From: Desulfobacterales bacterium
Lineage (GTDB): Bacteria; Desulfobacterota; Desulfobacteria; Desulfobacterales; UBA11574
Assembly (NCBI GenBank): GCA_022340885.1
Contig: JAJDND010000151.1
Coordinates: forward strand, 1 to 32,540
Direction: 5' to 3'
DNA: 32,540 bases
The position numbers and the translations under genes are program-made. Position 1 is the stretch's first letter; every line of letters begins with the position of its first letter. Shown here piece after piece: positions 6,413 to 26,096 of this stretch. The notes under the pieces were generated by a model. That model saw only the letters and a program-made list of their open reading frames with translations, searched no databases and was not told where the DNA came from.

Positions 6413-8479
6413 CTAAAAAAGTACTTTGGCGCCGACATACAATGTCCTGCCCGCCTGTGGAAAGCCGTAGGCCTGTTCATAATTCCGATCAAACACGTTG
6501 TCGGCACCGACATAGACATGCAACCGGTTTTTTGCAAATGCCTGGTCCAGTTTGAGGTTGACCAAGGTATAATCGTTCAATTTTCGCTTCTCCAGAGGCG
6601 TATTCCGGGAGTAAAAATACTGGTCGGCGACGTACAAGACGCTGGCATAGACGGAAAGCCCGAAATCGAAAATATATTGGGTCTCAAACGTGAATTTATG
6701 TTCAGGCCTGTACTGCAATTGATCTTTTTCAGTATTGGGGGACTTGTCCTTGGTATCCATATACGTGTAACCGGCACTCAGCAACAGGTTTTTAAAATAT
6801 CGCGTCTCTGCCGTCAGTTCCACACCCTGGAATCGATATTCATCATTGTTTTGAAAGGTATCCGTGGGGGGTATTTTTTCGATGTAATCCTGAACATCAC
6901 TATAAAATCCTGTCAGCGAAAGGGTCGTGCGTTCAAAAATCCGCTGATCGATTCCCAATTCGTAGTTGTAGGCCGTTTCAGGGGTTAAATCCGGATTCCC
7001 TTCATTTTCCCCGTAAAGCTGGCGAATGGACGGGAACCGAATCTTGCGGGCCGCCGCCCCCCTCAAGCGGGTATTTTCAAAAACATCATAATGCGCGCCG
7101 ACGAGAAACCCGTAATCATCCTCGCCGTCTCCGTTATCACTGTCGAACCAGTAATAACTGTAGCCGAACACCAGGCCTAACCGGTCAATGGGTGACACTT
7201 CGTATTCAATGGCGGCGGTATAGATCTTGACCGAGCGGTCGGCGCTGAAGTTTCGGGTGGCGTAAGTCGTGCTGCCGCCGCCACCACCGCCGCCACCACC
7301 GCCACCACCACCACCGCCGCCGACAGGAACGTCCCGGATAATGCCGCTGGACTCGAAAACCTGTTCTTCGCCGCTCAACGAGACGGTGAGAAGACCGATG
7401 GCCTTAAGATCGGCGGAAGTTTGCAGCGTGCCGCCAAAGATTTTGGTGGTGTTATTTATTCTGAAGGTGTTTTTAACGGTGGGATCACTCATGGAGTTAT
7501 ATTGGTTGTTATCATACTGGTTATCATCTTCATCCAGTTGGTTGGCAAAGAGCCAGCCGCGCATGCCGAAAGGTCCCGGCAGATCGCCGCTGACGGAGAT
7601 CTGACCGGAAAAACCGTCGTAATTGTCAATTCGTTCGTACTTGGGCCTGGAAGCGAAAGGGTCTGAACTGTCATTAATTGTAATCGGCGGTTTCCCGTAT
7701 TGGCCCCGGATTTTGTTGGCAACCAATCCGATTTGCCAGAGGTCATTGGGCGCATACCCGACATTGGCAAAAAGGGTCTTTTCGTTTTTGTCGCTGTTTT
7801 CTCTCAAACCGCCGTCTTCCTCTGACGTGGGTACGAAATCATCGGACAGCACAAAGCCGTCGCTGTCTAGCGCACTGCCGCTGACAAAACCGTTAAACCC
7901 TTTTTTGGCTCCGGAGAGGGTGAAAGTTCCCAGGTTACGGTTCCGCTGTCCGGTCTCCGCTGTTACGGAGCCCTGAAAACCCTCGGTCCCTTTTTTGGTA
8001 ATGACGTTGATGACGCCGCCAAGTGCGCCCTGGCCGTACAATACCGAACTGTCGCCGTAGGACACTTTTATTTTGGCGATGTTTTCCACAGGAATGATGC
8101 TCGGATCAAACTGTCCGTCATAGGTGGAATTAAATGGAATGCCGTTGAGCAAAAGCAGCACGTGCCGCGACCGAAAACCTCTGATGTCGACCCTCGGCAC
8201 GCCGTCGGTTCCGGTGCGAATATTTACCCCGGGCAGCAGATCCAGGGCGCTGTCCAGGGTTTGCACATGCCGTCGTGCGATGTCGGCGGCGGTGATTTCC
8301 CGCACCGTACCGACGGACTCCACACCGGCACGTTCGCCGGTAACAACGACTTCACCCAGGGTGTAGGTTGCCGTCTTATCTATTTCTGTTTCTGTTTGTG
8401 AAAACCCGTTTTGAGGAAAACCAATGCACAGGCCCATCACCAGGCAAGCCAAAACCATTCGTGCCAAACCGTTTTTCAT
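6413..8479 (-). CDS. TonB-dependent outer-membrane receptor with polyglycine tract
   Basis: 688 residues. A signal peptide (MKNGLARMVLACLVMGLCIG..., cleavage probably after FSQ) is followed by a TonB-box-like TYTLGEVVVTG and a plug domain (about 45-150) with DSALDLLPGVNIR and VLYGQGALGGVINVITKK. A 22-strand-type barrel ends in Phe (YVGAKVLF), the Bam signal. The layout resembles BtuB/FepA-class receptors. The substrate cannot be read from sequence, and no cobalamin riboswitch or Fur box was recognised upstream. Residues 387-402 are sixteen consecutive glycines, discussed as a finding. The start at 8479 is chosen for its GGAGGTGA site; a GTG at 8494 is in frame but less likely. It is divergent from an HTH/periplasmic-binding-domain regulator. 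Confidence 0.93.
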   Translation of the reverse strand: MKNGLARMVLACLVMGLCIGFPQNGFSQTETEIDKTATYTLGEVVVTGERAGVESVGTVREITAADIARRHVQTLDSALDLLPGVNIRTGTDGVPRVDIRGFRSRHVLLLLNGIPFNSTYDGQFDPSIIPVENIAKIKVSYGDSSVLYGQGALGGVINVITKKGTEGFQGSVTAETGQRNRNLGTFTLSGAKKGFNGFVSGSALDSDGFVLSDDFVPTSEEDGGLRENSDKNEKTLFANVGYAPNDLWQIGLVANKIRGQYGKPPITINDSSDPFASRPKYERIDNYDGFSGQISVSGDLPGPFGMRGWLFANQLDEDDNQYDNNQYNSMSDPTVKNTFRINNTTKIFGGTLQTSADLKAIGLLTVSLSGEEQVFESSGIIRDVPVGGGGGGGGGGGGGGGGSTTYATRNFSADRSVKIYTAAIEYEVSPIDRLGLVFGYSYYWFDSDNGDGEDDYGFLVGAHYDVFENTRLRGAAARKIRFPSIRQLYGENEGNPDLTPETAYNYELGIDQRIFERTTLSLTGFYSDVQDYIEKIPPTDTFQNNDEYRFQGVELTAETRYFKNLLLSAGYTYMDTKDKSPNTEKDQLQYRPEHKFTFETQYIFDFGLSVYASVLYVADQYFYSRNTPLEKRKLNDYTLVNLKLDQAFAKNRLHVYVGADNVFDRNYEQAYGFPQAGRTLYVGAKVLF
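7274..7321. repeat. In-frame trinucleotide microsatellite (16 glycine codons)
   Basis: Forty-eight bases of GCC/ACC triplets on the plus strand encode sixteen Gly codons (GGC/GGT mixture) in the TonB receptor. The unit is three bases, so slippage would change tract length without breaking the frame. Confidence 0.9.
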
Positions 8480-8562
8480 CGTCACCTCCGACACTCCGGA
8501 TTCATAAAGATTGTCGATTTAAAATTGTCGCAGATCCCGCTTCAAGTTAGCAATTCAGCTAT

Positions 8563-10876: not shown

Positions 10877-11196
10877 TCCATGCGGAGGTGATATGGGTGA
10901 TTCTGGGTATGGGGCTGGTGACATATCTTCCGCGCTGGTTCCCGCTGGTCTTTTTGTCCCGGCGCAGGCTTCCGCAATGGTTGGTCGAATGGCTTGACCT
11001 GATTCCGTCGGCCATCCTTAGCGCGCTCCTTTTACCGGAGTTGGTGACCAACGGCACGCCCCGCCATATCGCCCTCTGGCAACCCGAACTCTGGGTGGCC
11101 ATACCAACCTTTGTTTTTGCCCTGAAAACGAAATCTTTGGGCGGCACCGTCATCATAGGAATGGCCTTGTTCTGGCTAGCCCAAAGTGTGATTTAA
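10873..11196 (+). CDS. azlD: AzlD-family branched-chain amino-acid exporter, small subunit
   Basis: 107 residues, four hydrophobic segments, with the AzlD motif LVTYLPRWFPLVFL near the start and LIPSAILSALLLPEL in the middle. The ATG at 10873 overlaps the azlC TGA (ATGA) and follows GGGGGG at 10863-10868. An in-frame ATG at 10861 is possible but lacks a site. It acts only as a complex with AzlC. The gap to the histidine kinase gene is 75 bases, so that gene may or may not be cotranscribed. Confidence 0.9.
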   Translation: MIHAEVIWVILGMGLVTYLPRWFPLVFLSRRRLPQWLVEWLDLIPSAILSALLLPELVTNGTPRHIALWQPELWVAIPTFVFALKTKSLGGTVIIGMALFWLAQSVI

Positions 11197-11271: not shown

Positions 11272-12753
11272 ATGAAACTGACAATAAAAATTATGGGGTT
11301 GATTTTTTTGGGAATCATTGCCCTCCTGGCTGTCGACGGATACATTACCGTCAAGCGCGAAATCAACCTGTTCGACAATGATATGAAGCAAAACGCTTTC
11401 ATGCTGGGAAACACGGTCAAGGAGCTGACCATAGGCGCTTGGCATGAATCCGGCCGGAACCGGGCTCTGGAACTGATCAAAAAAGTGGATAAAGAGGAAA
11501 ATCATATGCGGATTCAGTGGGTTTGGCTGGGCGGTCTTTCAAGCGGTCCTTACATGCCCCATGTGGCCTTGAAAAAATTGACCGCGGTATTCAATGGCCA
11601 TGAAATTTCGGTAAAAAAGACAGATGACAATGGACCCGGTTACCGTTATACGTATATTCCCGTCAAAATCAGCAATAACGCGCACGGCGCCCTTGAAATC
11701 TCGGAATCTCTGGCCGAGTTGACGGGCTATGTGCATAAAACGATATTTCGATCGATTATACTCGGCATCCTGATGGCGCTGCTGGGCTTTATCATGCTGT
11801 GGGTACTGGGTATTAAATTTGTGGGCCGTCCGCTGAATCAAATGATGGCATTTACCCGGCAGATCGGCGAGGGTGATTTTTCGAAACAAATTGTCGTTCA
11901 TGGACACGATGAACTGTCCAATCTGGCGACGGCCATGAATCAAATGTGCGAACAGCTTGCGGCATCACGAGAGGCTGTCCGAAAAGAAACGGAAGCCCGG
12001 ATTGCGGCCCTTGAGCAGTTGCGCCACACCGAACGCCTTGCGACTCTGGGGCGTCTGTCTTCAGGGATCGCCCATGAACTGGGGACCCCCCTCAATGTTG
12101 TTTCAGGAAGAGCCAAGTTGATCATTCATGAAAACCTCAACAAACAAGACATTGTCGAATGCTCGAGGATTATTAAAGAGCAAGCAGAGCGCATGGCGAA
12201 ACTGATCCGGCAACTGCTCGATTTTGCCAGACGCCGGGCGCCTCAAAAGTCATGGGTCGATCTTCGAAATTTATCCGCTCAAGTCATGGAAATGCTGACA
12301 CCGAGCGCAAAAAAACAAAACGTCATCATCGATCTTTTAAAAAAGGAAGACATCCCCCTGGTCCCCATTGACCCGTATCAGATTCAACAGGTTTTGATCA
12401 ACCTGGTGTTGAACGGGATTCAGGCCATGCCTGAAGGGGGACATTTGGAACTCGGAATTCATATGAAATACGCGTGCCCTCCGGCACAAAATTGCAGTCC
12501 GAAACAAAATTATGCGGTCATATATATTAAAGATGAAGGAAGCGGTATTCCTGAAGAACACATCAACCATATATTCGAGCCTTTCTTTACCACCAAAAGT
12601 GTGGGGCAAGGGACCGGATTGGGGTTATCCATTTCCTATGGCATCGTTCAGGAGCACGGCGGATGGATCGATGTACAGAGCAATGTCGGCAAAGGGAGCT
12701 GTTTTACCATTTATATACCGCTGGAGGTTGACCAATGCGCGGAAAAATCCTGA
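11272..12753 (+). CDS. Membrane sensor histidine kinase (HAMP, HisKA, HATPase_c)
   Basis: 493 residues. The first membrane helix is at about 7-25, a periplasmic sensor region at about 28-160, and the second helix at about 162-182. A HAMP domain ends near residue 235, followed by a short coiled coil. HisKA contains the H-box GIAHELGTPLNVV with His268. The ATPase domain has the N box (Asn381, LVLNGIQAM), DEGSGIP, FEPFFTTK and GTGLGLSIS. This is the NtrB/ZraS class that pairs with sigma-54 activators. Two cysteines (402, 408) sit in an insertion of the ATPase domain. The ATG has GAGGAA six bases upstream. It overlaps the next gene by 19 bases, making that gene its cognate regulator. The signal is unknown. 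Confidence 0.93.
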   Translation: MKLTIKIMGLIFLGIIALLAVDGYITVKREINLFDNDMKQNAFMLGNTVKELTIGAWHESGRNRALELIKKVDKEENHMRIQWVWLGGLSSGPYMPHVALKKLTAVFNGHEISVKKTDDNGPGYRYTYIPVKISNNAHGALEISESLAELTGYVHKTIFRSIILGILMALLGFIMLWVLGIKFVGRPLNQMMAFTRQIGEGDFSKQIVVHGHDELSNLATAMNQMCEQLAASREAVRKETEARIAALEQLRHTERLATLGRLSSGIAHELGTPLNVVSGRAKLIIHENLNKQDIVECSRIIKEQAERMAKLIRQLLDFARRRAPQKSWVDLRNLSAQVMEMLTPSAKKQNVIIDLLKKEDIPLVPIDPYQIQQVLINLVLNGIQAMPEGGHLELGIHMKYACPPAQNCSPKQNYAVIYIKDEGSGIPEEHINHIFEPFFTTKSVGQGTGLGLSISYGIVQEHGGWIDVQSNVGKGSCFTIYIPLEVDQCAEKS

Positions 12754-14093
12754 TCGTCGATGATGAACAAACCATGTGCGAGATGCTGGCAGACGATCTC
12801 GAACGGCATGGCTTCCTGCCGACATGGAGCATTTCTTCAGAGAAGGCGCTTGACCTTTTGAAGACACAATCTTTCGATGTTCTTTTGGCGGATCTGAATC
12901 TGCCGAAAATGAACGGCATCGAACTTTGCGAACGAATCGCTGCAAACCGGCCGGACATCCCGGTCATCGTCATTACCGCCTTCGGGAGTATGGAAACCGC
13001 TATCGCCGCCATTCGCGCGGGAGCATACGATTTCGTCAACAAACCCATCGATACGGAATTTCTTGTCCTTGCCCTGGACCGCGCCGTCAAACACCGCGGC
13101 CTCCAGGAAAAAGTAAAGCTTTTGGACCAGGCACTCAAAAGATCTCACCGGTTCGACAGATTGATTGGCGAAAGTCCCCTTATGCGGAAGCTGATGAATC
13201 GGCTCGAACGCGTTGCCGATACTGAAACGTCTATTCTCATTGCCGGAGAAACCGGAACAGGAAAAGAACTCGTTGCACGGGCTCTTCATAAACGAAGCCG
13301 CCGGTGTAAAAACCCCTTTGTCGCCGTCAACTGTGCCGCTCTGCCGCATTCGCTGCTGGAAAGCGAACTATTCGGCTATAAACGCGGCGCGTTTACCGAT
13401 GCAAAGGCGGATCGCAGAGGATTGTTTTTACAGGCTCATGGCGGAACGCTCTTTTTTGATGAAATCGGTGATATCCCCTTGTCCCTTCAATCCAAGCTTC
13501 TTAGATCTCTGGAAGAGCGCAGTGCCCGCCCCATCGGCGGCACTTCGGAAGTCCCTTTTGACGTGCGAATTATCGCTGCGACCAATCGAGACATTGAAAC
13601 CGCCATTCAAGAAGGCCAGTTTCGTGAAGACTTGTATTATCGCATCAATGTCATTCAGATCGATCTTCCGCCCCTTCGGGAGCGCGGTACCGACATTCTC
13701 CTTCTCGCTCGACATTTTGTTGAACAGTTTGCCATTCGCGCTAACAAACAAATTGCCGGGATATCCAATAGCGCCGCGGAAAAGCTTTTGAATTATTCAT
13801 GGCCCGGAAATGTGCGCGAACTTCGAAATACCATCGAAAGAGCGGTTGTGTTGACAGGATATGAAAAAATTTCCGTCGATGACCTTCCGGAAAAAATACG
13901 CGATTATAAGGCTTCCCGGTTTCTACTTGAAAGTGACACCGCAAGCGAACTCGTTCCGGTTCAGGAAGTAGAGCGCCGATACATTCTTCATGTTTTGAAA
14001 ACGGTCGGAGGCAACAAAACCGTGGCCGCGAAAGTGCTGGGTCTGGATCGCAAAACCCTGTATCGCAAGCTCGAGCAATACAAGGTCGACTGA
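12735..14093 (+). CDS. NtrC-family sigma-54-dependent response regulator (GAFTDA variant)
   Basis: 452 residues. The receiver covers about 1-120, with acidic pair Asp9-Asp10, phospho-acceptor Asp53 (LLADLNLP) and Lys103. The AAA+ sigma-54 interaction domain covers about 142-375, with Walker A GETGTGKE (171-178) and Walker B GTLFFDEIG (237-245). The loop that normally reads GAFTGA is GAFTDA (218-223). A Fis-type HTH lies at about 420-448 (NKTVAAKVLGLDRKTLYRKL). It binds upstream sites and drives sigma-54 open-complex formation when phosphorylated by the overlapping kinase gene. The ATG at 12735 has GGAGG (12722-12726). The sigma-54 promoter 219 bases past its stop is the obvious candidate target. 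Confidence 0.95.
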   Translation: MRGKILIVDDEQTMCEMLADDLERHGFLPTWSISSEKALDLLKTQSFDVLLADLNLPKMNGIELCERIAANRPDIPVIVITAFGSMETAIAAIRAGAYDFVNKPIDTEFLVLALDRAVKHRGLQEKVKLLDQALKRSHRFDRLIGESPLMRKLMNRLERVADTETSILIAGETGTGKELVARALHKRSRRCKNPFVAVNCAALPHSLLESELFGYKRGAFTDAKADRRGLFLQAHGGTLFFDEIGDIPLSLQSKLLRSLEERSARPIGGTSEVPFDVRIIAATNRDIETAIQEGQFREDLYYRINVIQIDLPPLRERGTDILLLARHFVEQFAIRANKQIAGISNSAAEKLLNYSWPGNVRELRNTIERAVVLTGYEKISVDDLPEKIRDYKASRFLLESDTASELVPVQEVERRYILHVLKTVGGNKTVAAKVLGLDRKTLYRKLEQYKVD

Positions 14094-14154
14094 CCAATGC
14101 GGTTCTAAATCCGCCCGACATACTTTCGGCGTCCTCCCGCGGCATATCAAGATC

Positions 14155-14187
14155 GGGGCATATTGCTACAATGTCGCAAAATGCCCC
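14155..14187. promoter_or_regulatory. Long dyad, candidate activator-binding site for the sigma-54 promoter
   Basis: GGGGCATATTGC (14155-14166) and GCAAAATGCCCC (14176-14187) form an inverted repeat of 12-base arms with one A/A mismatch around a 9-base centre. It lies 125 bases upstream of the -24 element, the usual distance for an enhancer site of an NtrC-type activator. It could also fold as a terminator stem for the preceding gene, but no U-tract follows. Confidence 0.5.
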
Positions 14188-14311
14188 ACCCCCAATGGCC
14201 GGACATCCAATGCATCCATGAAAATTTCGATCCGGGTTTAACCAATATTTATTTATAATTACAATATATTATAATATTTTCAGAGAGCACCCGACCATTG
14301 GTGATACGTTC

Positions 14312-14327
14312 TGGCATGCGAATTGCT
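14312..14327 (+). promoter_or_regulatory. Sigma-54 (-24/-12) promoter
   Basis: TGGCATG-N4-TTGCT matches the consensus TGGCACG-N4-TTGCW at all but one base, with the invariant GG and GC exactly ten bases apart. The predicted start point is near 14338, giving a leader of about 75 bases to the receiver gene at 14414. It follows the gene for an NtrC-family activator. Confidence 0.8.
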
Positions 14328-14413
14328 AAATATCCGATCAAGATAACTTCGGGAAATGATACCTTAAATTCACGTTTCGCATGCTGGATTTTCTTTGGAC
14401 GACAGGTTTTGAA

Positions 14414-14869
14414 ATGGGGATACCCACTGAAAAGAAAAACAATATATACCGGTTATCTGAAAATGACTATGGCGGTCATACATCCAGCATATTATTGGCG
14501 GAAGATGATGAAGAAATGCGCGGCTTATTGGCGCTGATGCTCCGAAAAAAAGGTTATCGGGTCTTTGAATGTAATGATGGCGTATCCCTTCTCGACATGC
14601 TTTCGCCGTATTTTCTGCAGGACGAAGAACATGAAAATTTCGATCTGATTATTTCAGACATTAGAATGCCCGGTGTAACAGGAATGGAGATACTGACCGG
14701 CGCCAATGAACTCGATGATTTCCCTCCGATAATTCTGATCACGGCATTCGGAGATAAGGAAATACATATGCAGGCCGATCGCTTGGGAGCGGTGGCGTTG
14801 TTCGATAAGCCTTTTGATATCGATGAAATGATGAAAAAAGTGGCGGAAATCCTGCCGGCACCGGCATAA
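14414..14869 (+). CDS. Stand-alone CheY-like receiver protein
   Basis: 151 residues, a single receiver domain from about residue 26 to 147. The acidic pair is in LLAEDDEEM, the phospho-acceptor is Asp82 (LIISDIRMPG), the conserved Thr is in LITAFGD and the Lys in LFDKPFD. There is no output domain, so it would act by protein contact or in a phosphorelay. An in-frame ATG at 14381 would add 11 residues. I prefer 14414, preceded by a weak ACAGG, because its leader length then equals that of the paralogous receiver next door. Both sites are poor. It is the first gene after the sigma-54 promoter and is followed after 47 bases by the receiver-HPF fusion. Confidence 0.85.
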   Translation: MGIPTEKKNNIYRLSENDYGGHTSSILLAEDDEEMRGLLALMLRKKGYRVFECNDGVSLLDMLSPYFLQDEEHENFDLIISDIRMPGVTGMEILTGANELDDFPPIILITAFGDKEIHMQADRLGAVALFDKPFDIDEMMKKVAEILPAPA

Positions 14870-14916
14870 GCGCGATTCATGCCGTGAAAAGCCATCGAAA
14901 CATACGGGAGACGGAT

Positions 14917-15759
14917 ATGGTCGAAGAAGAACATTGTATGCTATATGCATCGGATTTTTCACCACAAAATTCTTTTTATAAACATTCGCCATTGAGGATA
15001 CTCCTTACGGAAGATGATCTTGAGATGCGCAAGATGCTTTCCTGGTATCTGCAGAAAAAGGGATGTGACGTTATAACGGCAAATAATGGAAACGATCTCA
15101 TGAGACACCTTGGATTATCCGGCCCCCTGGAATATTTTCACGGATTTGATTTAATAATATCAGACATTCGCATGCCGGGTATGACGGGACTGCAAGTTCT
15201 TGAAGCCACCAAGAAATTCGATGATTTTCCGCCCATGATTTTAATCACCGCCTTTCCGGACAAACAAACCCTTGACCTGGCCAACAACTTGGGAGCTGCG
15301 GCCGTACTCACTAAACCTTTCGACATGGACGACCTCCTAACCATAATCAGTCAAATATACCCTCTAGGACTGATATCCGCGGAACCGCAGTTCCCAATTT
15401 CCGAACAAAAATCTGTTACCGTGAAATTTCCACTCGATTTATGCTTCCGTCATGATATCGAAACGGAGCCGGTCAAAGATTTTGTGTATCACATGGCCGC
15501 CAAACTGAATCGATTCCACCATTACATCCAGCATTGCCGGGTTGTCATCGATCAGTCGGGAGCCCACCATCAAAAAAACCGTCTCTATTACGTAACGATA
15601 ACCATAGATATTCCCGGTAAATTCATTACCGTGAAGCACGATTCGGAATCGGGAACCGGTTCCGAAAACCTTTACCTTTCCATAGACTTTGCTTTCACCA
15701 TGGCAATGAGACGTTTAAAAAGGTATCTTAAAAAGCATTACGCTGCTAAAAGGAAATAA
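14917..15759 (+). CDS. Receiver domain fused to an HPF/RaiA-type ribosome-hibernation domain
   Basis: 280 residues. The receiver spans about 26-142: LLTEDDLEM, phospho-acceptor Asp83 (LIISDIRMPGMTG), LITAFPD and Lys133 (LTKPFD). It is clearly a paralogue of the preceding receiver. After a linker, residues 167-274 resemble delta-type HPF/RaiA (S30AE) proteins: PLDLCFRHDIETEPVKDFV, AAKLNRFHHYIQHCRVVID, the HH..NRLYYVTITIDIPG stretch, VKHD, then LYLSIDFAFTMAMRRLKRYLKK, which ends in the usual basic helix. HPF domains bind the 30S decoding and mRNA channel and silence ribosomes. ATG 14917 has GGGAG six bases upstream; a GTG at 14884 is less likely. There is no DNA-binding domain. The HPF call rests on remembered family patterns, not a search. 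Confidence 0.85.
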   Translation: MVEEEHCMLYASDFSPQNSFYKHSPLRILLTEDDLEMRKMLSWYLQKKGCDVITANNGNDLMRHLGLSGPLEYFHGFDLIISDIRMPGMTGLQVLEATKKFDDFPPMILITAFPDKQTLDLANNLGAAAVLTKPFDMDDLLTIISQIYPLGLISAEPQFPISEQKSVTVKFPLDLCFRHDIETEPVKDFVYHMAAKLNRFHHYIQHCRVVIDQSGAHHQKNRLYYVTITIDIPGKFITVKHDSESGTGSENLYLSIDFAFTMAMRRLKRYLKKHYAAKRK

Positions 15760-16039: not shown

Positions 16040-17518
16040 ATGAATGATCCCATGTGCGCGCACAATGAAACAAGAAAAAAAACTGTCGTGACGCTGATGC
16101 TGGCAGCCGCCTTGATATTAGCAATTTCAATCACCCAACCCGCCGTCAATGCGTGGGCCGTGCCAGGGGACCGGTCAACCATCCCTGAAAGCTTCAGCAT
16201 GCTGGCCGAATCCGTTAGTCCGGCGGTGGTCAATATCAGCACCGTAAAAACCATCAAGGGCGGCGGACCGGTGTTCCGCAACTATTATCAAGGCCCCCAG
16301 GGAGATCAGGATCCATTCAAGGATTTTTTCGATAAATTTTTCGGAGATGAAGAGCAGCGGGAGTACAAACAGCGAAGCCTGGGATCCGGATTCATCATCG
16401 ATAAAGACGGGTATATCGTTACGAACAATCATGTGATCGCCGGTGCGGACGAAATCAAGGTCAAATTGAATTCCGGAAAAGAATATGACGCCAAAATCAT
16501 CGGCCGGGACCCCAGCACGGATATTGCGTTGATTAAGATAAAACCCGGCGGAAACTATTCCATCGCGACCTTCGGCGATTCCGATTCCCTGAAAGTGGGA
16601 CAATGGGTAGTGGCCATCGGCAGTCCCTTCGGGCTGGAACATACCGTAACTGCGGGAATTGTCAGCGCCAAAGGCCGGGTCATCGGCTCCGGTCCTTATG
16701 ACGATTTTATCCAGACCGATGCATCCATCAACCCCGGCAACAGCGGCGGTCCGCTGATCAACATGAACGGTCAGGTGGTTGGCATCAATACCGCCATTAT
16801 CGCCGGCGGGAACGGAATCGGATTTGCCATTCCCGTAAACATGGCCAAGGGAGTCATCAAGCAGCTTCAAGAACAAGGTAAAGTGACCCGGGGCTGGCTC
16901 GGGGTCGGCATTCAGGATATTTCCGATGAAATGGCTGAATATTACGGAATAAAAAACAAAGAAGGCGTACTGGTATCACAGGTTTTTCCGGGAGATCCAG
17001 CGGAAAAGGCCGGTATCCGGACAAAGGACATTATTATTGACGTCAACGGTAAAAAGATCGAAACCAGCCGGGAGCTGACCCGCATCATTGCCGCTTTTCA
17101 TGTCGGCCAAATGGTCAAAATAAAGGTATTGCGCAACGGCAAGGCGAAAACGTTTAACGTCAAAATTGCCAAAAGACAGGAAGGGCGCCTGTCTTTAGGG
17201 GGTATCCCCCATAAAGAACATGAAGCCTTCGGCATACGGGTATCAAACCTGACGCCGGAAATCGCCCGAAAGTTCAATTTACAAGAACCCAACGGCGTGG
17301 TGGTCACCCATGTTCAATCCGACAGCCAAGGTGACAACGAAGGTATTCAAGCCGGCGACATGATAAAGGAAATCAATCACCGATCCATCAACACGGTGGA
17401 TGATTACAATAATGCCGTGCAAAAAGTGAAAAAAAACGGTGCTGTAATTATGCTGGTCAAACGGGCCAATTCAGGATTTTTCGTGATTAAACTGAAAAAG
17501 AAAAAGACGGTTTTTTAA
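16040..17518 (+). CDS. degP: DegP/DegQ (HtrA) periplasmic serine protease
   Basis: 492 residues. A hydrophobic signal segment is at about 15-38 (VVTLMLAAALILAISI), and cleavage is probably after AWA. The trypsin-like domain has His131 (TNNHVIAG), Asp161 (STDIALIK) and Ser235 (NPGNSGGPL), a complete triad. PDZ1 starts near GWLGVGIQDIS and PDZ2 near FGIRVSNLTPE. This is the two-PDZ DegP/DegQ form, a periplasmic chaperone-protease that degrades misfolded envelope proteins. The start at 16040 follows AAGGAGAG; an open frame extends upstream to 15854 but has no site and no conservation. It is 280 bases after the REC-HPF gene, so it probably has its own promoter, which I could not define. Confidence 0.95.
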   Translation: MNDPMCAHNETRKKTVVTLMLAAALILAISITQPAVNAWAVPGDRSTIPESFSMLAESVSPAVVNISTVKTIKGGGPVFRNYYQGPQGDQDPFKDFFDKFFGDEEQREYKQRSLGSGFIIDKDGYIVTNNHVIAGADEIKVKLNSGKEYDAKIIGRDPSTDIALIKIKPGGNYSIATFGDSDSLKVGQWVVAIGSPFGLEHTVTAGIVSAKGRVIGSGPYDDFIQTDASINPGNSGGPLINMNGQVVGINTAIIAGGNGIGFAIPVNMAKGVIKQLQEQGKVTRGWLGVGIQDISDEMAEYYGIKNKEGVLVSQVFPGDPAEKAGIRTKDIIIDVNGKKIETSRELTRIIAAFHVGQMVKIKVLRNGKAKTFNVKIAKRQEGRLSLGGIPHKEHEAFGIRVSNLTPEIARKFNLQEPNGVVVTHVQSDSQGDNEGIQAGDMIKEINHRSINTVDDYNNAVQKVKKNGAVIMLVKRANSGFFVIKLKKKKTVF

Positions 17519-17592: not shown

Positions 17593-17730
17593 GAGTGTTC
17601 AGAGTTCGGCGGTTTAGTGTTCAGTGATTCGTGCTTGACAATTTAACCATATACTCATACGCCGTCTAAATCCTGAACACTGAACACCGAACACTGCTGA
17701 ACTCTGAACACTGAACACCGAACTCTGATA
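17593..17730. repeat. Cluster of degenerate direct and inverted TGAACAC repeats
   Basis: The right half (17673-17730) is built of repeated CTGAACACTGAACACCGAA-like words. The left half (17593-17627) carries reverse complements: GAGTGTTCAGAGTTCGG (17593-17609) pairs with CTGAACTCTGAACACT (17697-17712), and AGTGTTCAGTG pairs with the words near 17678-17688. The RNA or single strand could form a nested stem around a central AT-rich part. The units vary in length, and there are no spacers of uniform size, so it is not a CRISPR array. Confidence 0.6.
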
Positions 17731-17780
17731 CCGAAAACGAAATACCAAAAACTGAAAACCCACTAAAGGAAGGAACCATT

Positions 17781-24368: not shown

Positions 24369-25901
24369 TTAGGGTTGAACTTTTTCAGGATATACCTTTT
24401 TTCTTAACTCAAGCCAATCGTGAATTTGAAAAATCGTTCCGGATAGATCATAGCGCCCCTGAGCAAACACCCCGTAATCCCCACCGCATCCCATGGCGGT
24501 GGCAAAACGGATATGATTGCCGTATATCAACCAGGTCTTGCTCCATTTTCTTTCAATGGCTTCGTCAAAGGGGTTACCTTCCGGCCCTTTGGCGTTGGAC
24601 TTGAAATGCGCCAGATCGAGTTGCCATATTCGGGTCATGATTTCTGTGGCATGCAATGTCTTCGCATTGGTTTCCCGAATGCTGTTTTCAAATCGGCGCC
24701 AGTGTCCATTGACCCAGGACGTGCCGTGGCAGCCCAAGCATACGGATTGCATGGTGTGGCGTCGCTTCATCATTTCCTTTTTCGTAATGAGATATTTTGA
24801 GGCAAAACTGCCGTCCAATGCCGTGGGTAAAGTCAGCCCGTTCTTGTTCCGGATCGTTGTGGTATCCGGTTCTTTTGGATGGGGATGGGCATAAATCAGG
24901 CCGAAAATCCGCCACGGTATCCGGCCGTTCATCTGGTGGGTGCGCTTGGCGACGACATCGCCGTCGGTATTGATCAACAGACTCACATGACAGACAGCAC
25001 AGGTCGGTGCGGTAAAGTCTTTGCCGATGGTCCAGGGAACGGCATCAAAATTCCACGATGCGCCCAGGCTGGAAAATATATTCCCGTGTTTGCTGGCCGA
25101 ATAGACTTTAAATGCCGGCACATCCGGACCGATATGGCATTCCTTGCATGTATTGGGTTTCCGGGCCATCTTTATGGAAAATGAATGCCGCGTATGGCAC
25201 GCGGCACACGACCCCCGTGTGTTGTCAGGATTGATTCGTCCGACACCCTGATTAGGCCATCCGTCGAAAATGGGAAACTTCAATTCACCCGCCAGTTCGG
25301 TGTTTCGGGTTTCATATCCTTTAATCGATATTTTGGTGCCGTGACAGTAGTAACAGGCATCGGCCTTGGTCGCATCGTCGGCCGGTTGAATCACCATGGG
25401 TTGCATATTTTTTCCGGACAATTTTACAGTTCCGAGGATGCTTTTCTGCAGTCGCTGATAAAGCGGATTGCCGGCCAGGTTGTTGACGGCATGGGACATA
25501 ATGTTTTTCGAGAATTGTTCCGCTTCCACGCTATGGCACGTCGCGCAATCCTGTGGGCTGACCACCACATGGACCTCGTATCCGTTGTGTTGAAAGGTGT
25601 CCGGATGGGCTTCGGGTCTTTGGGTATGGCACTCCGCGCATCCCACGACTTTATCGGACAAATCTTTTGGGATTTCCTTGCTCGACACTCTTCTTGCCAG
25701 GCCCTTTACGGCCAGTGCCGCCCGGGGCGTCATCCGGGCATGCCGGCTGTTCCGCCAGCCCTCGACGATCCCCGGATGAAGGGTCGAGTGGCATCCCAGA
25801 CATTCGGCCGTGGCGTCGCTCACCGGCACTTCCGCCGCCGATGAAATATTCGGAATCCCGATAAAAAGGCAGACAACAAACAGACAGGCGATTCTTTTCA
25901 T
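24369..25901 (-). CDS. Octaheme c-type cytochrome, hydroxylamine-oxidoreductase family
   Basis: 510 residues with a signal peptide (MKRIACLFVVCLFIGIP, cleavage probably after SSA) and eight CxxCH heme sites at Cys34, 88, 119, 183, 232, 252, 301 and 388. Motifs such as CLGCHSTLHPGIVEGWRNSRHA and the spread of the sites match the octaheme HAO family, periplasmic enzymes handling hydroxylamine, nitrite or related N compounds. In anaerobes the reductive type is usual. Whether the cross-linking Tyr of oxidative HAO is present cannot be judged without alignment; Tyr476 in GGDYGVF and Tyr484 are candidates. The start at 25901 has AAGGAG; the frame runs on to 25967 without a site. It heads an operon with two YeeE/YedE genes. 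Confidence 0.88.
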   Translation of the reverse strand: MKRIACLFVVCLFIGIPNISSAAEVPVSDATAECLGCHSTLHPGIVEGWRNSRHARMTPRAALAVKGLARRVSSKEIPKDLSDKVVGCAECHTQRPEAHPDTFQHNGYEVHVVVSPQDCATCHSVEAEQFSKNIMSHAVNNLAGNPLYQRLQKSILGTVKLSGKNMQPMVIQPADDATKADACYYCHGTKISIKGYETRNTELAGELKFPIFDGWPNQGVGRINPDNTRGSCAACHTRHSFSIKMARKPNTCKECHIGPDVPAFKVYSASKHGNIFSSLGASWNFDAVPWTIGKDFTAPTCAVCHVSLLINTDGDVVAKRTHQMNGRIPWRIFGLIYAHPHPKEPDTTTIRNKNGLTLPTALDGSFASKYLITKKEMMKRRHTMQSVCLGCHGTSWVNGHWRRFENSIRETNAKTLHATEIMTRIWQLDLAHFKSNAKGPEGNPFDEAIERKWSKTWLIYGNHIRFATAMGCGGDYGVFAQGRYDLSGTIFQIHDWLELRKKVYPEKVQP

Positions 25902-26096
25902 TTGCCGCTCCTTGGTATTTTGGTCCAACGACCTGACATTGAGGCGCTGAAACGGTTTTTCTGTCACTCCTCATGTATTCGTAAAAGAAATGGAAAATCT
26001 TCTTTAGAAAGCATTATCCAGGGCATGCTTCAACAAAAAAATGCTTCGACGCCGCCCGGAATGTAAAAGAAAATATCGAATAATCAAAAAGAAGGC

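Follow-up and report, generated by a model that had tools for sequence, protein, structure and literature searches.

Organization of the locus

The window, by which we mean the whole stretch of 32,540 nucleotides that was analyzed, carries a five-gene cassette between positions 11195 and 17766, whose limits were set by blastn comparison with the congener G003. The first gene encodes a sensor histidine kinase (11272..12753, + strand; Pfam HATPase_c, 3.8e-26; HisKA, 3.8e-13; HAMP, 2.5e-9), with an N-terminal hydrophobic segment and no receiver of its own, which, judging from sequence alone, looks membrane-located. It is overlapped by the gene of an NtrC-type response regulator (12735..14093, +), composed of a receiver, a sigma-54 AAA+ domain and a Fis-type HTH (Sigma54_activat, 4e-71; Response_reg, 2.6e-28; HTH_8, 5e-14). 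These are followed by a lone receiver of 162 aa, RECa (14381..14869, +; Response_reg, 3.1e-22), by a protein in which a receiver is fused to a ribosome-hibernation domain, REC-HPF (14917..15759, +), and by a DegP/HtrA-type periplasmic serine protease (16040..17518, +; Trypsin_2, 1.2e-38, and two PDZ domains), whose start codon was inferred.

In G003, azlCD is directly followed by the ABC genes, and 372 unrelated bp are found where the window has the cassette. Homology across this azlC-azlD-ABC junction ends at position 11194 of the window and restarts at 17767, and therefore the five genes form one unit of 6.57 kb that is either present or absent. This pattern suggests that the cassette was gained horizontally or was lost in the congeners, and it supports a joint function of the genes. 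At its right-hand edge, between DegP and the ABC genes (17673-17760), we observed imperfect tandem repeats (CTGAACACTGAACACCGAACACTG), which might be linked to insertion. Elsewhere in the window, positions 1596-2500 encode a tandem pair of Hsp20 small heat-shock proteins; in the same-family genome G020 a homologous pair lies directly upstream of the ABC genes, that is, in the position occupied by the cassette in the window.

Genes for the kinase, NtrC and the lone receiver, usually together with DegP and without any HPF domain, are also found in several families of the phylum of the window and in Myxococcota, and M. xanthus has the same gene set in a different orientation. Like the window, these NtrC-type cassettes (Desulfobacterota-type and Myxococcota) combine a kinase, an NtrC-type activator, a sigma-54 promoter, a receiver and DegP. 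RECa is a conserved member of the cassette, and DegP is its conserved last gene in most relatives. A receiver with an HPF output was found only in the window and in two other sequences, L037 and G122; the receivers of the relatives have no output domain. Two variants of the cassette were also observed. In L132 (7026-9132 of the single-contig genome G092) the kinase gene adjoins the lone receiver gene. An NtrC gene was found neither between the two nor next to them, but the gap still contains a promoter-like sequence, TGGCATGGTTCTTGAT. In L040 (1140-2233), from a Myxococcales MAG, two tandem lone receivers of the cassette family lie beside a kinase, which represents a second case of receiver duplication.

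Sigma-54 promoter and putative activator site

Between the NtrC and RECa genes lies a sigma-54 promoter of the -24/-12 type, TGGCATGCGAATTGCT (14312..14327, +), with one mismatch to TGGCACG-N4-TTGC, and this is the sole match in the window with fewer than two mismatches to the consensus. The equivalent gap of every relative examined contains a -24/-12 consensus match, and in G122 the match (TGGCACACCTTTTGCT) is found immediately upstream of the fusion gene. A probable activator-binding site consists of two degenerate palindrome copies at 14154-14170 and 14172-14188 (14154..14188, +). In L037, G122, G077, G754, G073 and G561 the promoter is preceded by the palindrome TGGGGCA-N3-TGCCCCA, and in G077 the exact GGGGCA-N3-TGCCCC at the cassette locus is the only zero-mismatch site listed. 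The evidence for the activator site is weaker than that for the promoter. A first candidate, TTGCNACANTGTNGCAA, was dropped because most relatives lack it, and the palindrome took its place. A genome-wide regulon derived from TGGGGCA-N3-TGCCCCA was uninformative, since in several genomes the matches with one mismatch were about as many as those of the reversed-pattern control. As inferred from motif conservation, promoter and palindrome fit an activation of RECa and REC-HPF by the adjacent NtrC-type protein.

The receiver half of REC-HPF

REC-HPF is encoded by an uninterrupted ORF of 280 aa with no internal stop, whose ATG is preceded by a Shine-Dalgarno sequence, GGGAG, at 14906-14910. The receiver domain, delimited with Pfam and a structure model, corresponds to residues 27-147 (14995..15357, +). 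Response_reg (PF00072) matches residues 28-144 (E=6.3e-21), and the (beta-alpha)5 receiver fold is supported both by the model and by Foldseek matches to receivers (prob 1.00). This receiver and RECa are siblings, sharing 47% identity. The phosphorylation residues D33, D34, D83, T111 and K133 are all present and are invariant in the three fusions out of three. A disordered linker connects the receiver to the S30AE half, and in the fusions the two halves have opposite calculated charge, the receiver having a pI of 4.4-5.0 and the HPF part a pI of 9.7-9.9 with a net charge of +7 to +9. The latter is more basic than the HPF and HPFcold domains with which it was compared. This contrast is compatible with an autoinhibitory contact between the halves, a possibility inferred from charge only; the model of the full two-domain protein (pTM 0.58, too low for placing the domains relative to each other) cannot show it.

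It might be argued that REC-HPF is a constitutive hibernation factor, whose HPF domain binds ribosomes whenever it is made. In this case control would be purely transcriptional, through NtrC and sigma-54, and the receiver would be decorative or sequestered, serving only as a phosphate sink or a tether. In favor of this reading, the conserved sigma-54 promoter is a sufficient control point, and the fusion receiver derives from the lone-receiver lineage of the cassette, in which output domains are absent. The evidence against it is that the three diverged fusions show no change in any phosphorylation residue and that the better kept half of the protein is the receiver (57% identity between the window and L037 proteins, vs. 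42% for the HPF half). We consider this explanation unlikely.

Fold and subfamily of the S30AE half

The HPFcold-like S30AE/HPF domain spans residues 169-280 (15421..15756, +) and has a basic C-terminal helix and a calculated pI of about 9.7. Ribosomal_S30AE (PF02482) matches residues 183-273 with a score of 33.5 bits (E=7.2e-8), the curated Pfam cut-off being 23.7 bits. The domain of L037 is also above the cut-off (35.4 bits, 1.9e-8), and that of G122 is below it (18.7 bits); the G122 domain is diverged, yet it can be aligned along its whole length with those of the other fusions. When the C-terminal 122 residues of REC-HPF were modeled separately (pLDDT 83), the top 32 Foldseek rows were all HPF/RaiA/YfiA/pY chains. 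Upon re-alignment, the 33 best rows by Z all belonged to the HPF family (Z from 14.8 to 9.0), and the first unrelated fold was met only at Z 7.8. Two ribosome-bound proteins shared the top score of Z 14.8, namely RaiA (8rd8_D, 102 residues, 2.1 A) and Borrelia HPF (8fmw_W, 95 residues, 1.3 A). The C-terminal half of REC-HPF is thus predicted by the model to have the fold of ribosome-bound hibernation factors; binding to the ribosome and inhibition of translation are inferred only.

The S30AE domain of REC-HPF is closest to the HPFcold subfamily, in which HPF is joined to a cold-shock domain. Its identity to the aligned HPFcold proteins is 25-36% (32, 36 and 33% for the three closest), as compared to 17-19% for HPFlong and HPFshort, and its best sequence match in the PDB is HPFcold of C. 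burnetii (9t0z, E=4.4e-8). The latter protein (CBU_0020, PDB 9T0Z/9TZE), described in 2026, lies in the decoding cleft of the 30S subunit, and its cold-shock domain holds the anti-Shine-Dalgarno (PMC13392368). Basic helices and an extra hairpin region are common to both proteins. However, in HPFcold the S30AE domain is followed by the cold-shock domain, whereas in REC-HPF it is preceded by the receiver and nothing follows its last helix; PF00313 is absent from all three fusions. With HPFlong, HPFshort and RaiA (PF02482 with or without PF16321) REC-HPF shares the S30AE fold, the Pfam family and a predicted occupancy of the 30S A/P cleft, but none of these proteins has a receiver, and HPFlong has a C-terminal dimerization domain (PF16321, S30AE_C) for which Pfam gave no match in the fusions. 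Lacking both the cold-shock domain and the HPFlong dimerization domain, the fusions are therefore neither HPFcold nor HPFlong by definition.

The first-pass annotation, made from the sequence alone, had described a full receiver with Asp83 and Lys133 joined to an HPF/RaiA domain with a delta-type HPF pattern. Both domains held, the C-terminal one with a significant S30AE match as well as a significant predicted fold. The delta-type assignment failed as a subtype: an ordinary delta HPF identity was rejected in favor of the HPFcold type on the basis of the sequence identities, the 9t0z match and the domain comparison.

The residues of the HPFcold family are only partly retained in the fusions, which have a motif of their own, HDS...ENLYL. 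This observation speaks for a second rival reading, in which S30AE has been repurposed for a non-ribosomal RNA or protein (an mRNA, or RNA polymerase/sigma-54), so that REC-HPF would be an ANTAR-like RNA-binding response regulator or a local modulator of sigma-54. The sigma-54 regulation of the cassette also counts for it, as does the existence of RNA-binding outputs in response regulators (ANTAR, e.g., PMC3369931). Indeed, ANTAR regulators of the EutV and AmiR type resemble REC-HPF in having a receiver attached to an RNA-binding output; this output, however, is a small helical antiterminator domain that acts on nascent mRNA and is unrelated to S30AE, and no Pfam match to ANTAR was reported in REC-HPF, whose output is S30AE. 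Against repurposing, the fold and the basic character match those of ribosome-bound HPFs, and the analysis encountered no S30AE protein for which a non-ribosomal target has been proven. This reading appears very improbable.

A third rival reading is that phosphorylation turns hibernation off or alters its form. For example, phosphorylated receivers might dimerize and join two 70S ribosomes together, taking over the role of the HPFlong dimerization domain, or the factor might be ejected for recovery. Receivers of response regulators commonly dimerize upon phosphorylation, and the fusion lacks the S30AE_C domain that HPFlong of the same genome has. The sequence, however, favors neither sign of the switch, and we regard this alternative, too, as very unlikely.

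Homologues of REC-HPF and the possibility of an artifact

When 84,980 species genomes were scanned for the receiver family, the search retrieved L037 (JAJRTU010000120.1), a contig of 3,453 bp from the MAG 'Gammaproteobacteria' Dive96_bin10.122, which contains the end of an NtrC gene, a lone receiver, a REC-HPF of 276 aa and the start of DegP. This REC-HPF is 45% identical to the window protein over its length. The taxonomic label of L037 is unsure, as the contig is short and the relatives of the MAG do not have the gene, but its value as an independent sequence is unaffected. A third fusion, G122, was found in a search of 389 genomes from the order of the window; its contig measures 37 kb, the genome is 97% complete, and the gene order is kinase, NtrC, REC-HPF and DegP, with no separate lone receiver. 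The order shared by the fusion cassettes is therefore histidine kinase, NtrC-type activator, lone receiver (where present), REC-HPF and DegP/HtrA. The full-length homologues L037 and G122 show 38-45% identity, and in a tree the three fusion receivers are monophyletic (support 100/97). Between members, the codons of the HPF segment agree more at positions 1-2 (0.52-0.66) than at position 3 (0.28-0.35), which indicates that the protein sequence is maintained by purifying selection.

REC-HPF is rare, being found in 3 genomes among about 1,900 searched in detail. The sensitivity of the search was imperfect, only the best few receiver candidates having been scored per genome, so that further fusions may exist. 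Neither RECa nor the fusion was found in any of 23 same-family genomes, and no REC-HPF was found in the viral contigs and plasmids searched. The viral contigs also yielded no HPFcold homologue that could have deepened the alignment for fold prediction. In the other matched contigs (L038-L116), tblastn at E<=1e-3 revealed no S30AE domain. Among the candidates, L007 was rejected as a further fusion, since it aligns as HPF plus a cold-shock domain without a receiver, and so were L040 and L113, which have tandem or double receivers without S30AE.

REC-HPF might be suspected of being an artifact, that is, an assembly join, a misbinned contig or a decaying fusion. The genome of the window is a draft with 89% completeness and 3.45% contamination, the cassette is missing from four congeners, and the L037 contig is 3.4 kb long and belongs to a gammaproteobacterial MAG, the relatives of which do not carry the gene. 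Nevertheless, three independent sequences agree in architecture and gene order, the G122 copy sits on its long contig in a nearly complete genome, and the HPF part is under purifying selection. A frameshift-type assembly error joining two genes, recognized at the outset as a case that would refute the fusion, is excluded by the two full-length homologues together with the codon-position conservation. Misbinning was rejected because the window gldG is 77% identical to that of G003 and the flanks match G003; more generally, gldG and the ABC genes share 75-88% identity with their counterparts in congeners, which indicates that the contig is native. An artifact is thus all but ruled out.

Proposed function of REC-HPF

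At the sequence level, a membrane-type histidine kinase, an NtrC-type activator, a sigma-54 promoter, one or more receiver genes and DegP occur together, and in three genomes a receiver is fused with an S30AE domain of the HPFcold type. The reading that we favor, with a probability of roughly 0.55, is that REC-HPF is a response regulator with a ribosome-hibernation output, encoded in an envelope-stress cassette whose kinase induces it and probably phosphorylates it; the transfer of phosphate, the binding to ribosomes and the sign of the switch are all inferred. In this view, upon periplasmic stress the kinase would phosphorylate both D83 of REC-HPF and NtrC, and the latter would activate the sigma-54-dependent transcription of RECa and REC-HPF, perhaps also of DegP. 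In the unphosphorylated state the acidic receiver would mask the strongly basic HPF domain; phosphorylation would release this domain, which would enter the A/P-site cleft of the 30S subunit and stop translation. RECa may serve as a sink or a timer by taking a share of the phosphoryl group. Ribosomes would idle while DegP handles misfolded envelope proteins, and dephosphorylation would free them.

This reading is supported by the domain scores of the window and L037 proteins, which exceed the curated cut-offs for both domains, the common gene order and monophyletic receivers of the three fusions, the codon-position conservation of the HPF segment, the precedent of archaeal HibA for the domain order, the C-terminal fold, the 9t0z match, the invariant receiver residues, the conserved promoter, the all-or-none cassette and the basic HPF part. 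Against it stand the absence of direct evidence for ribosome binding, for phosphorylation by the cassette kinase or for the sign of the switch, the lack of both an anti-Shine-Dalgarno-protecting cold-shock domain and an HPFlong dimerization domain, the G122 score below the cut-off, and the rarity of the fusion. The same genome already encodes one HPFlong (L001, S30AE plus S30AE_C; G000:C86:8293-8562) and one HPFcold (L002, S30AE plus cold-shock domain; G000:C156:2365-2643), and REC-HPF is therefore an extra factor, presumably a specialized one. Three distinct hibernation-factor architectures, HPFlong, HPFcold and REC-HPF, are thus found in one organism.

The arrangement of REC-HPF can be compared with that of archaeal HibA (CBS-HPF), in which an N-terminal regulatory or sensory module also precedes a C-terminal HPF/RaiA domain. 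HibA differs in having an adenylate-binding CBS module instead of a phospho-receiver and in lacking a two-component operon; conversely, no CBS module was met in REC-HPF, whose N-terminal domain is a receiver. When HibA is bound to the ribosome, its N-terminal module points to the large subunit (PMC13324472), so that, by analogy, the order regulatory module-HPF may be workable on the ribosome. The bound nucleotide had no clear effect on the ribosome binding of HibA (PMC13324472), and caution is therefore needed before a sensory domain joined to such a factor is taken to control its binding.

The first-pass annotation had also proposed that REC-HPF links a membrane sensor to translation as a two-component output, bypassing transcription, and knew of no described system of this kind. 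The link to a membrane sensor is supported, as the fusion is conserved and lies in an operon with a membrane-like kinase. The bypass held only in part: the conserved sigma-54 promoter suggests that the protein is probably induced as well, so that direct control is likely combined with control of transcription, the gating of ribosome binding by phosphorylation being an inference. A bolder version of our reading, which could as easily prove wrong as right, is that the response regulator is itself the hibernation factor, and that the membrane kinase switches ribosomes off or on directly, without new transcription, while also inducing REC-HPF through NtrC and sigma-54. If this were true, a phosphorelay would end on the ribosome.

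As to novelty, no REC-HPF protein or system was found in the open-access full text searched, but a mention in the preprint bioRxiv 2025.11.04.686544, which deals with the evolution of hibernation factors and is cited for HPFcold and HPF-SigE fusions, is not excluded. Both domain families and fusions of HPF to other modules were already known; a phospho-receiver on HPF is not known to have been described before. The control of hibernation factors is generally considered to lie in their synthesis and turnover. A receiver placed on one of them would couple an envelope sensor to translation through a direct, reversible and signal-specific switch, response regulators would gain a new kind of output, and the cassette would connect envelope proteolysis by DegP with ribosome idling. 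REC-HPF is also a small, tractable protein for studying the timing of ribosome hibernation.

Other features of the window

Two further ORFs of the window, both on the - strand, were noticed. The first (6413-8494) resembles a TonB-dependent receptor and has a glycine run near 7274-7321, which originates from a tandem repeat of the GCCACCGCC type and could vary in length. The second (24369-25967) resembles a multihaem c-type cytochrome with many CxxCH motifs, and adjoins genes of YeeE/YedE-like sulphur transporters.
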